DNA from: an uncultured Prevotella sp.
Lineage (GTDB): Bacteria > Bacteroidota > Bacteroidia > Bacteroidales > Bacteroidaceae
Assembly (NCBI GenBank): GCA_905236815.1
Contig: CAJOPE010000026.1
Location: 26,403 to 90,402, forward strand
Direction: 5' to 3'
Length of the DNA: 64,000 nt
In this document: in pieces, positions 59,096 to 63,256 of the stretch
Layout of the letters: each line of letters opens with the position of its first letter
Position numbering within the stretch: position 1 is the stretch's first letter
Program-made: the position numbers and the translations under genes
Notes under the pieces: model-generated
Seen by the model: only the letters and a program-made list of their open reading frames with translations
Database searches by the model: none
Told to the model about the DNA's origin: nothing

Positions 59096-59129
59096 AAAAA
59101 AGCCTCTCTTTTTACAGAGAGGCTTTTTT
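59096..59129. terminator. Bidirectional terminator
   Basis: AAAAAAGCCTCTC...GAGAGGCTTTTTT. Confidence 0.9.
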
Positions 59130-59141
59130 ATTCAATAATAA

Positions 59142-60635
59142 TTATTTTTTCTTGACTTTCAACTTAGGAATCTTGATAGTCTGTCCTTCAGTTACTGAAG
59201 TACCATTCAAAGCTTCTAAATAACACTCCATGCCAGGACCAAGATAAGCCTTACTCAAGCCCTTGATAGTTTGACCCTTTTTTGCCTTTATCGTTTTATC
59301 AATACCGACAATTATATAAGCTCCATGGCGAATTCTCGCATCAGTATTGTATTTTGCATAAGCATCGGCTGGATTATTATCAACTTTTTGCTCTACAGTT
59401 TTTGAGGTTTTAGCTACTTCTGGCTTTGTTTCAGCTTTTACTTCAACATTCTCTGTAGCTTCCTCTTTTTCCTTAGCTTTCTCAGCTTGCTCTATAGCAT
59501 CAGCAGGAGCTTTCATTCTATCCGCATCTTCCTTTGCTTTTTTCTCTATCACTCTTTGTTGTTGAGTAGCAATACTATTTTTAAGATGCTGATTCTCCGT
59601 TTTCAACTGTTCCAGTTGACTTTCTGCTTTACTATAACTTGAATAGAAGTAGATACATCCAATTATTAGAGCAACAATTACTGCACCTCCAATATAGGCA
59701 AAATATTTTTTTATCGTAAATGAGAAAGAATCATCCTCCTCATAATAATAAGGTTCTTCTGATTCCTCATCCTCATCATCTTCCTCTTCTACAACACTGC
59801 CATTCTCTTCTTTGTTATCAGACTCGGCAGTAAGAGTTTCTTCTCTTGTAACTTCACTTGTTTCTGAAACAAAAGATTCCTTTTGGGGAGTTTCTATTAC
59901 CTCATCTAATTCATCCTCTTCACCTGAAGCAGAATCTTCAGGAACAAGATCATCGGTTGATGAACTTTCTGTATTTTGGACTCCCTCGGAAAGTATTACA
60001 TCTTCTGCATCATTTTCAGAGTTGATTGTTTCATCTGTTGCTTCCTCAATACTGCTTATCACTTCATCTGCTTCGTCTTCAAAAGTATCTTCTCTTGATT
60101 CTTCTACAACAGGAGTTTCCTCTACAATATCTTCTTTATCTTCAACTTCCTTAACTTCATCTTGAGGTGTTTCTTTTACAGTATCAAGTATTTGATCTGA
60201 AGTATTAACATCACCACCCTCATTGGTTACTTCTGAGTCGAATACAGAATCTTCCTCTACATCGGAATCTTCTTCTGTAGTATCAGTGTCATATTTTTCA
60301 TCTATAACATTGAAATCTACCCCATCATTTACCTCTACAGTTTCAAACTGAGCAAATGGACGGTTTACAATTTCCTTGATGATTGTATCTGGAGTAAAAG
60401 TGATTTTTTCTCGACCTTCGATAACAATTCGCTCACCAGTATTCACATTGATGCTTTCACGGTCCTTAGTCTTTAAAATTTTGAAAGTACCAAGTCCCTT
60501 GATTTTCACCTGCTTGTCATTCTTCAGTCCTTCGGCAACCACCTCGAACATCATCTTGGCAAAAATATCAGCATCACTTTGCTTAAGGCCATTCTTCTCG
60601 ACAAGAATTTTGGCTATATCAGAAATTCTACTCAT
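59142..60635 (-). CDS. Membrane-spanning HU-family DNA-binding protein with acidic linker and LysM-like C-terminus
   Basis: N-terminal HU domain (MSRISDIAKILVEKNGLKQSDADIFAKMMFEVVAEGLKNDKQVKIKGLGTFKILK...INVNTGERIVI), D/E-rich linker, TM YFAYIGGAVIVALIIGCIYFY, K/E/Q coiled coil, C-term LysM-like IKAKKGQTIKGLSKAYLGPGMECYLEALNG. Confidence 0.88.
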   Translation of the reverse strand: MSRISDIAKILVEKNGLKQSDADIFAKMMFEVVAEGLKNDKQVKIKGLGTFKILKTKDRESINVNTGERIVIEGREKITFTPDTIIKEIVNRPFAQFETVEVNDGVDFNVIDEKYDTDTTEEDSDVEEDSVFDSEVTNEGGDVNTSDQILDTVKETPQDEVKEVEDKEDIVEETPVVEESREDTFEDEADEVISSIEEATDETINSENDAEDVILSEGVQNTESSSTDDLVPEDSASGEEDELDEVIETPQKESFVSETSEVTREETLTAESDNKEENGSVVEEEDDEDEESEEPYYYEEDDSFSFTIKKYFAYIGGAVIVALIIGCIYFYSSYSKAESQLEQLKTENQHLKNSIATQQQRVIEKKAKEDADRMKAPADAIEQAEKAKEKEEATENVEVKAETKPEVAKTSKTVEQKVDNNPADAYAKYNTDARIRHGAYIIVGIDKTIKAKKGQTIKGLSKAYLGPGMECYLEALNGTSVTEGQTIKIPKLKVKKK

Positions 60636-60918
60636 TTTCACCTCCGTTCTTTAATTGTTCCTTGACAGATGCCACAGGGCGGAAGCCCAAAACAAGTTTA
60701 GGTGGAACTAACATTCTTTTCTTTGTGGTAGGATTTACCACAATACGCTCCATACGCTTCTTCACATCAAAAGTTCCAAACCCAGGAATTCCAACAGCCT
60801 CACCCTGCTCAAACTGAAGAGTCATTGCATCGATTACATTGCGCACCAGTTTCTGGGTATCCTCCTGTGTATACCCTGAGCGGTCGGCTAGTTCACTTAT
60901 GTACTCTTTGTTATTCAT
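60628..60918 (-). CDS. HU/IHF-family DNA-binding protein
   Basis: 96 aa; DAMTLQFEQGEAVGIPGFGTFDVKKRMERIVVNPTTKKRMLVPPKLVLGFRP. Confidence 0.94.
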   Translation of the reverse strand: MNNKEYISELADRSGYTQEDTQKLVRNVIDAMTLQFEQGEAVGIPGFGTFDVKKRMERIVVNPTTKKRMLVPPKLVLGFRPVASVKEQLKNGGENE

Positions 60919-60958: not shown

Positions 60959-62287
60959 TTATTTTACGACAGATCCGAAGAGATCGAATTCATCGCTGTT
61001 TTTCATTTTCACATTATAGAAACTTCCCACTCTGAGCTGTTTCTCTTTTACTGGTATCAGAACTTCTGGATCTACTTCAGGAGAGCAGAACTCTGTTCTA
61101 CCAACATAATATTCGCCTTCCTTTCGGTCGATAATCACTTTCATAGTCTTACCAACCTTTTGTGCCTCTATGTCTGTAGAGATTTCCTCTTGTATAGCCA
61201 TCAACTCATCCAAACGAGCTTGTTTTACAGCCTCAGGAACATCATCTTCGTAATGTTCTGCACTGTATGTACCTTCCTCTTCAGAATATGCAAAAGCACC
61301 CATTCTTTCGAACTTAGCCCATTTTATGAATTCCTTTAGTTCCTCAAAGTCTTCATCTGTCTCTCCAGGGAAACCTACCATTAAAGTAGTACGCAAATGA
61401 ATACCAGGTACTCGTTCACGAATAGCATTAATAAGTTCCATAGTTTCCTGCTTTGAAACATGACGATGCATTCGATCTAACATATGGTCACTGATATGCT
61501 GAAGTGCAATATCAAGATAATTGCAAACATTTTGCTTTTCTCGCATTACATCCAACAACTCCATTGGGAATTGATTAGGATAGGCATAATGGAGACGAAT
61601 CCACTTTACGCCAGGAATATCAGCCATCTTAGAAATCAACTCTGCAATACGAGTCTTTCCTCCGTAGAGGTCTATACCATAATAGGTCAATTCCTGTTCA
61701 ATGATTTGGAATTCCTTTACTCCTTCAGAAGCCAATTGCTTAACTTCATCAAGAATATCTTCCATAGGACGGCTTTGATGCTTTCCTGTAATCAGTGGTA
61801 TGGCACAATATGCACAGTGACGGTCACATCCTTCTGCAATTTTAATATAAGCATAATGATGTGGGGTTGTTAAATGACGAGAAAGAGATGAACGCTGCTC
61901 ACTGAAAGAAGCAGTATCCTTGCTGTCAGCTGCTCCTAGATCGGAGAGCAACTGCTTATAATTGAACTTACCATAGAATTTATCCACTTCCGGTATCTCA
62001 TTCTCCAGTTCGTCCTTATAGCGTTGAGAAAGACATCCCATCACGAAAAGTTTCTTCAGTCTGCCTTCGTTTTTTGCTTCAACAAATTCAAGTATGGTGT
62101 TAATACTTTCTTCTTTAGCCGTTTCAATAAAGCCACAAGTATTAATTACCGCAATTTCTCCTTGTGGGTTCTTACTGTCATGCACACAATGGTAACCTTG
62201 TTCTTCAAATTTACGCATCAGTGTCTCAGAATCTACAAGATTCTTAGAACACCCCATTGTGATAATATCTATCTGATTTTTCTTCAT
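60959..62287 (-). CDS. rimO: Ribosomal protein S12 methylthiotransferase
   Basis: IDIITMGCSKNLVDSETLMRKF; EGCDRHCAYCAIPLITGKHQSRP. Confidence 0.96.
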   Translation of the reverse strand: MKKNQIDIITMGCSKNLVDSETLMRKFEEQGYHCVHDSKNPQGEIAVINTCGFIETAKEESINTILEFVEAKNEGRLKKLFVMGCLSQRYKDELENEIPEVDKFYGKFNYKQLLSDLGAADSKDTASFSEQRSSLSRHLTTPHHYAYIKIAEGCDRHCAYCAIPLITGKHQSRPMEDILDEVKQLASEGVKEFQIIEQELTYYGIDLYGGKTRIAELISKMADIPGVKWIRLHYAYPNQFPMELLDVMREKQNVCNYLDIALQHISDHMLDRMHRHVSKQETMELINAIRERVPGIHLRTTLMVGFPGETDEDFEELKEFIKWAKFERMGAFAYSEEEGTYSAEHYEDDVPEAVKQARLDELMAIQEEISTDIEAQKVGKTMKVIIDRKEGEYYVGRTEFCSPEVDPEVLIPVKEKQLRVGSFYNVKMKNSDEFDLFGSVVK

Positions 62288-62302: not shown

Positions 62303-63256
62303 TTACTTTTTAAAGAGTGAATCTACAAATTCTCGTTTATTAAATAGTTGAAGGTCTTCCATACCCTCACCAAGTCCGATATATTTTACAGGAACTTTCA
62401 ACTGATCACTAATACCAATAACGACACCACCTTTGGCAGTACCATCAAGTTTAGTGATAGCCATAGAGTCTATACTAGTAACGGAAGCAAACTGCTTTGC
62501 CTGCTCATAGGCATTCTGGCCAGTACTTCCATCAAGAACCAACATTACCTCATCAGGAGCCTGAGGAAGAACTTTCTTCATAACCTCCTTAATCTTCTTC
62601 AACTCATTCATCAAGCCTATTTTATTATGCAAACGGCCAGCAGTATCAATCAATACTACATCAGCGCCATTTGCCTTGGCACTCTGAAGCGTATCAAATG
62701 CCACAGAAGCAGGATCACTACCTTGTTGCTGTTTGATTACAGGCACGCCTACACGCTCACCCCAAATTGAAATCTGCTCAACAGCAGCAGCACGGAAAGT
62801 ATCTGCAGCACCTAAATAAACCTTTTTACCAGCTTTCTTAAACTGATATGCAAGTTTACCAATGGTTGTAGTCTTGCCCACACCATTTACACCTACAACA
62901 AGAATAACATAAGGCTTATGATCAGAAGGAAGCTCCCAATTATCATTGTCTTCGCTATGATTCTCGGCTAAAAGGTTAGCAATCTCATCACGAAGAATAC
63001 CGTTTAGTTCAGAAGTAGATACATACTTGTCGCGAGCCACACGCTCTTCAATACGGCGGATGATCTTCAGTGTTGTGTCAACGCCAACATCTGATGTAAT
63101 CAAGATTTCCTCAAGGTCATCCAGCACATCATCATCTACCGTTGATTTACCAGCAACAGCACGAGCAATTTTACCAAAAACACTTTCCTTGGTCTTTTCA
63201 AGACCCTTGTCTAGAGTTTCCTTTTTGTTTTTATTGAAAAAGCCAAAAATTCCCAT
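62303..63256 (-). CDS. ftsY: Signal recognition particle receptor FtsY
   Basis: VILVVGVNGVGKTTTIGKLAYQ; LIDTAGRLHNK; TKLDGTAKGG. Confidence 0.97.
   Translation of the reverse strand: MGIFGFFNKNKKETLDKGLEKTKESVFGKIARAVAGKSTVDDDVLDDLEEILITSDVGVDTTLKIIRRIEERVARDKYVSTSELNGILRDEIANLLAENHSEDNDNWELPSDHKPYVILVVGVNGVGKTTTIGKLAYQFKKAGKKVYLGAADTFRAAAVEQISIWGERVGVPVIKQQQGSDPASVAFDTLQSAKANGADVVLIDTAGRLHNKIGLMNELKKIKEVMKKVLPQAPDEVMLVLDGSTGQNAYEQAKQFASVTSIDSMAITKLDGTAKGGVVIGISDQLKVPVKYIGLGEGMEDLQLFNKREFVDSLFKK

Follow-up and report, generated by a model that had tools for sequence, protein, structure and literature searches.

A single gene in an uncultured Prevotella sp. joins an HU/IHF-type domain to an acidic linker, one transmembrane (TM) helix and a predicted LysM domain, and a gene for a soluble HU protein lies directly upstream of it. 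This HU-LysM fusion with its adjoining soluble HU suggests that chromosome and cell wall are directly linked in gut Bacteroidales and in one further bacterial family. Both genes lie on the minus strand of the window, the 64,000-nucleotide stretch of DNA that was analysed, which contains the following features.

59096..59129, minus strand: terminator-like inverted repeat with a terminal T run, 3' of the fusion gene, found by eye
59142..60635, minus strand: HU-acidic linker-TM-LysM fusion gene, 497 aa plus stop, ATG at 60635
59154..59345, minus strand: predicted LysM domain, residues ~431-494, first strand extended, near-invariant Cys471
59346..59645, minus strand: helical/low-complexity spacer, predicted periplasmic, residues 331-430, variable in relatives (alignment, AlphaFold2)
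59646..59702, minus strand: single transmembrane helix, residues 312-330, Kyte-Doolittle mean 2.34
59721..60311, minus strand: acidic disordered linker, residues 109-305, 197 aa, 81 D/E versus 8 K/R
60312..60368, minus strand: conserved post-HU segment VNRPFAQFETVEVNDGVDF, residues 90-108, near-invariant in relatives
60363..60635, minus strand: HU/IHF domain, residues 1-91, arm tip INVNTGER
60628..60635, minus strand: 8-nt overlap ATGAGTAG between the partner HU stop and the fusion start
60628..60918, minus strand: soluble HU partner gene, 96 aa, directly upstream of the fusion, Pfam PF00216 at 8e-23
60959..62287, minus strand: rimO, upstream neighbour, kept in many Bacteroidales and not in family f47
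62303..63256, minus strand: ftsY, in the same operon context as rimO

The open reading frame starts at ATG 60635, as the original prediction had it, and encodes 497 residues, the predicted length of 498 having included the stop. The HU domain, acidic linker, single TM helix and LysM-like tail named in that prediction were all borne out by Pfam, AlphaFold, Foldseek and conservation, and the observed domain layout of the frame (59142-60635) is real. An AlphaFold (AF2) model of the full protein was built with 53 aligned sequences, and relatives were found by an alignment-based search of genome contigs, a single-sequence search of those contigs with the fusion having given no match. The same layout is present in 124 related proteins from many Bacteroidales families and one family (f47) of another class, although counts over these proteins are not independent events because the proteins are related. 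Since the whole layout is kept across the phylum, a chance origin is excluded, and a chance or frameshift artefact was ruled out by the retention of the reading frame over its full length in relatives. Named genome records supplied 76 of the fusion frames, each with one TM segment, and included Segatella, Prevotella, Hoylesella, Leyella, Xylanibacter, Palleniella and others, together with three plasmid-collection records. The terminator-like repeat at 59096..59129 was absent from the output of the automated scan.

At the N-terminal end, residues 5-91 of the fusion matched Pfam PF00216 (E=2e-17, 63.6 bits against a cut-off of 22.4), a sequence search of the PDB returned an IHF/HU match at 8e-12, and the head was modelled at a pLDDT of ~90-95. 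Foldseek with the full model likewise returned IHF/HU matches (best 5e-8), such that sequence and fold match the HU/IHF superfamily across the entire domain, with IHF-alpha as the best NCBIfam match. The intercalating proline at the arm tip, which is typical of the superfamily rather than universal, is replaced by valine in the window; across the sample this position is Val/Ile in all Bacteroidales fusions but one and Pro in the f47 fusions. Since 4/18 other soluble HU paralogues also lack this proline, its loss does not exclude HU/IHF membership. The alignment of relatives showed that basic residues of the fused HU have been kept, with K44, K46, K52 and R59 invariant and K77 conserved in >90%, as would suit a head that binds DNA. 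Past the end of an ordinary HU sits a further segment with the consensus VNKPFSQFETVxLNDGVDF, conserved to the same degree as HU itself. It probably offers an additional surface for contacts, which the partner HU may use.

The C-terminal end was harder to recognise from the window sequence alone, which gave no match to Pfam LysM (PF01476) even at E=10. The same profile matched the C-termini of 13 of 19 relatives (best 6e-8), including one relative (L066) above the cut-off at 2.8e-6, and members from Bacteroides, Parabacteroides and f47 matched the LysM region of PRK11198 at 2e-6 to 1e-7. A family profile of the C-terminus matched the LysM structure 4uz2 at 1e-4. AF2 modelled this domain at a pLDDT of 95-98 within the full fusion and, in isolation, as a beta-alpha-alpha-beta fold with a mean pLDDT of 90.6. 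When the C-terminal model was compared with the PDB using Foldseek, the best matches were nearly all LysM proteins (Ecp6, Kbp, MltD, NlpC/P60), with probabilities of 0.90-0.99 for the top matches and E-values (0.05-0.5) that the small size of the domain keeps modest. The solved structure of one close LysM relative, E. coli Kbp, shows a potassium-bound form (7pvc), a point against the tether proposed below. The fold and family matches thus rule out that LysM was an over-reading, even though the window sequence alone fails Pfam; the C-terminus is, by these models, a LysM fold, and the check proposed with the original prediction, that both HU and LysM folds should be predicted, came out positive in AlphaFold with agreeing PDB matches. 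Peptidoglycan binding would be the expected activity of such a domain.

Several observations concern this LysM subfamily in its own right. Cys471 (window 59223-59225) lies in an MxCY motif in 69/77 proteins and is the single near-invariant cysteine of the domain; such a residue is unusual for a periplasmic domain and could form an intermolecular disulfide. After LysM, the f47 members (L121-L144) carry a conserved helical tail with a TPR-like look, e.g. KLAKATKLVSEAYAKSGNSERAKEYSRFAAKYE, while several other Bacteroidales families have a different tail, YGIDxxxPxSVxKAKxLxxKIL. In a relative, an 887-aa multi-TM O-antigen-ligase-like protein (L254:1649-4312) closes with two domains of this LysM subfamily, set apart by simple repeats. 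A genome with a regular HU-LysM fusion also encodes a second acidic-TM-LysM protein (L255:1-612), truncated at its 5' end by the contig edge, near an HU-SPOR-type gene.

Between the two ends, exactly one TM helix was found in 124/124 related proteins, none of which had a second hydrophobic segment above threshold, and a hydrophobicity scan of the window fusion detected no N-terminal signal-like segment. K/R residues are more numerous before than after the TM helix in 86 of the 124 proteins and fewer in 13, and this excess favours an orientation with HU inside by the positive-inside rule. The predicted topology, with HU in the cytoplasm and LysM in the periplasm, thus has three lines of support: the modelled folds, conservation and the positive-inside rule. 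In the AF2 model, a helix spanning residues 308-373 includes the TM segment and runs beyond it. The linker has a pLDDT mostly below 50 and is net negative in 124/124 relatives (median charge -36), with a length that varies from 30 to 421 aa (median 145). The suggestion that this linker mimics DNA found no specific support, as acidity is the one property retained by a linker that is otherwise free to change in sequence and length.

The partner gene appears to be as much a part of this system as the fusion itself. The original prediction contained neither this gene, nor the missing arm-tip proline of the fused head, nor the HU-TM-SPOR protein of the same genome. A soluble HU lies directly upstream, overlapping the fusion gene or a few bases apart from it, in all 20 of the diverse loci drawn from Bacteroidales and f47 and in 71/76 named-record loci; in the window, the 8-nt overlap makes translational coupling likely. 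A tree of HU domains placed the upstream partners in one clade (98/99) and the fused heads in a second (99/96), each separate from ordinary HU, and a Bacteroides fusion (L237) belongs with the fused heads; the inner order of this tree is weak because it was built from 100 columns. The window partner retains the intercalating proline and the VPPK motif, and all 21 partner HUs have the arm-tip proline. IHF and HU are soluble proteins with an intercalating proline in both arms. The pair has the same fold, and two paralogous subunits per complex are proposed for it as well, but the Bacteroidales fused arm lacks the proline, unlike both arms of IHF and HU. A Pro-bearing partner beside a mostly Pro-less Bacteroidales fused head looks like an IHF-like division of labour between two subunits, from which we infer that the partner HU and the fused HU form a heterodimer.

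Given these features, we propose, with about an even chance of being right, that the two genes encode a transenvelope HU complex that tethers nucleoid DNA to the cell wall. The partner HU and the fusion would be made together from overlapping genes, and the partner and the fused head would most likely pair in the cytoplasm as an IHF-like heterodimer and bind DNA. One helix would hold the fusion subunit in the inner membrane, and the long acidic disordered linker, like-charged to both membrane and DNA, would act as a spacer, extending the reach of the HU head and holding it clear of the acidic membrane surface. With the periplasmic LysM holding peptidoglycan, the whole complex would be a physical nucleoid-to-wall tether that positions or anchors the chromosome. 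The alignment showed the pattern that a tether should have, with sequence conserved only in LysM at one end and in HU plus the segment next to it at the other, and unconstrained linkers in between. Thus, of the nucleoid-to-wall tether originally predicted, the layout and topology are supported, and the tethering role is the best reading of them. Whether the pair is also an ancient Bacteroidota module, in which a dedicated HU heterodimer bolts the chromosome to peptidoglycan directly and without an adaptor protein, we put more tentatively, at somewhat less than an even chance.

If the HU head binds DNA only locally, the outcome could be regulation instead of anchoring. The pair might be a membrane-bound regulator, with LysM as a sensor of the condition of the wall and the HU pair acting on transcription or DNA topology at chosen loci. 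With a TM region and a predicted DNA-binding domain in one protein, the fusion falls within the definition of transmembrane transcription regulators, for which a single TM and a cytoplasmic DNA-binding domain are a fit (PMC10269533), and an IHF-like heterodimer could be sequence-specific, as the IHF-alpha match of the fused HU would allow. However, the main text of that survey contains neither HU-like/IHF domains nor LysM, a flexible acidic linker of ~200 residues would transmit a signal poorly, and the sequence specificity needed is usually missing in HU domains. We therefore consider regulation unlikely, if the most credible of the alternatives.

The distribution and surroundings of the genes bear on both the proposed tether and a second alternative. 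Bacteroides finegoldii and Parabacteroides distasonis carry the same fusion gene, labelled only 'HU family DNA-binding protein' in their records, in the gene order ftsY-rimO-HU-fusion-MoxR-DUF58-Bat. A survey of the order found the fusion in many families and about 24/149 genomes, and a survey of the phylum found it in about 41/49 genomes of f47, which we guess to be Balneolaceae (Rhodothermia); among the matches listed, none came from other sampled families of f47's class. The check for conservation across Bacteroidota was thus answered by many Bacteroidales families and a family of another class, in a distribution that is patchy, since most sampled families of the class do not have the fusion, and that implies no universal need for anchoring. 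The f47 loci read have other flanking genes, with neither ftsY nor rimO beside the pair. The HU pair itself is thus the conserved unit, and functional coupling to ftsY/rimO was down-weighted.

These neighbours would nonetheless suit a pair whose HU fold is inactive on DNA and which serves as a membrane protein (or RNA) scaffold, for example in envelope assembly or co-translational targeting. A scaffold-type role was once suggested for eukaryotic CCDC81, and such a function is compatible with two features of Bacteroidales: the kinking proline mostly missing from the fusions, and the adjacency of ftsY and rimO. Set against this are the basic residues retained in arm and body (K44, K46, K52, R59 and K77), the proline and basic residues retained in the partner HU, and the f47 pair, which adjoins neither ftsY nor rimO. 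A scaffold inactive on DNA consequently seems improbable to us.

Slightly less probable still is a landmark for division or for the pole, where DNA binding would place the envelope protein at the nucleoid or away from it, in a manner resembling nucleoid occlusion, rather than hold DNA: the Mycobacterium tuberculosis nucleoid-associated protein Rv3852, which has a C-terminal TM helix and is linked to cell-wall synthesis, steers the wall scaffold Wag31 (PMC8233713), and the division proteins YneA and DipM are among the LysM profiles matched, but no division gene adjoins the pair in the loci read. Rv3852 differs from the fusion in that it is not an HU protein, has no LysM and acts through Wag31.

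Returning to the proposed tether, a membrane-anchored HU had been predicted to fall outside the standard picture of HU, yet a precedent for it exists in the same genome, which encodes an HU-CCDC81 (two HU domains)-TM-SPOR protein (L112:1324-2376, G000:C146). Membrane HU proteins with wall-binding domains thus come in two kinds in this one genome. HU-CCDC81-TM-SPOR proteins of Bacteroidota were reportedly described by Burroughs and colleagues in 2017, with a predicted role in chromosome partitioning. Both kinds (PF18174/PF18175 plus SPOR in the known one) have HU inside, one TM and a peptidoglycan-binding domain outside; the known kind has two tandem CCDC81-type HU domains and SPOR, whereas the fusion has one classical HU, an acidic linker and LysM. 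Membership of the fusion in the HU-CCDC81-SPOR group was ruled out, as a Pfam search of the window protein gave no match to PF18174/PF18175 at E<=1 and its C-terminus is LysM, not SPOR; its relatives gave PF18175 matches below the cut-off only. The HU-TM-SPOR protein could do the same job as the fusion.

Other proteins resemble parts of the fusion. HU-TM-LysM fusions very likely fall within HU_bacL, a clade of Bacteroidetes HU proteins whose C-terminal extensions are long and charged (Kamashev et al. 2017, PMC5683647). The main text of that paper compares the tail to lysine-rich PAKKA tails; it refers neither to a membrane nor to LysM or peptidoglycan and, unlike our findings for the HU-LysM fusion, describes no partner gene. 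Vibrio cholerae HubP shares with the fusion a periplasmic LysM, a single TM and an acidic cytosolic part, and modulates the placement of the chromosome 1 origin via ParA1, its LysM being necessary and sufficient for polar placement (PMC8789113). However, HubP has the opposite domain order, a TPR tail and no HU, and reaches DNA through ParA1; with its reversed order and HU instead of TPR, the fusion lies outside the HubP/FimV/TspA layout, so that the likeness is one of functional analogy only. By that analogy, the HU head would replace the adaptor step of HubP.

An iron-stimulon paper lists a gene of the HU family and, separately, a LysM gene, and does not describe an HU-LysM fusion (PMC10434189). 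In our literature search, whose partial coverage makes it weak evidence of novelty, the HU-TM-LysM layout or its partner gene was found described nowhere. Joining a membrane HU to a wall-binding domain is thus a known idea, since the same genome carries the HU-CCDC81-TM-SPOR type; on that weak evidence, the HU-TM-LysM layout and its partner gene are apparently new.

How bacteria attach their chromosome to the envelope has long been asked, and the links known so far mostly run through adaptors (HubP-ParA) or transertion. In the fusion, a DNA-binding end and a wall-binding end, both functions being predicted, are placed in one conserved polypeptide. Its hosts are gut bacteria that are genetically tractable and medically important, and the gene pair makes the idea of a tether between their chromosome and cell wall testable.
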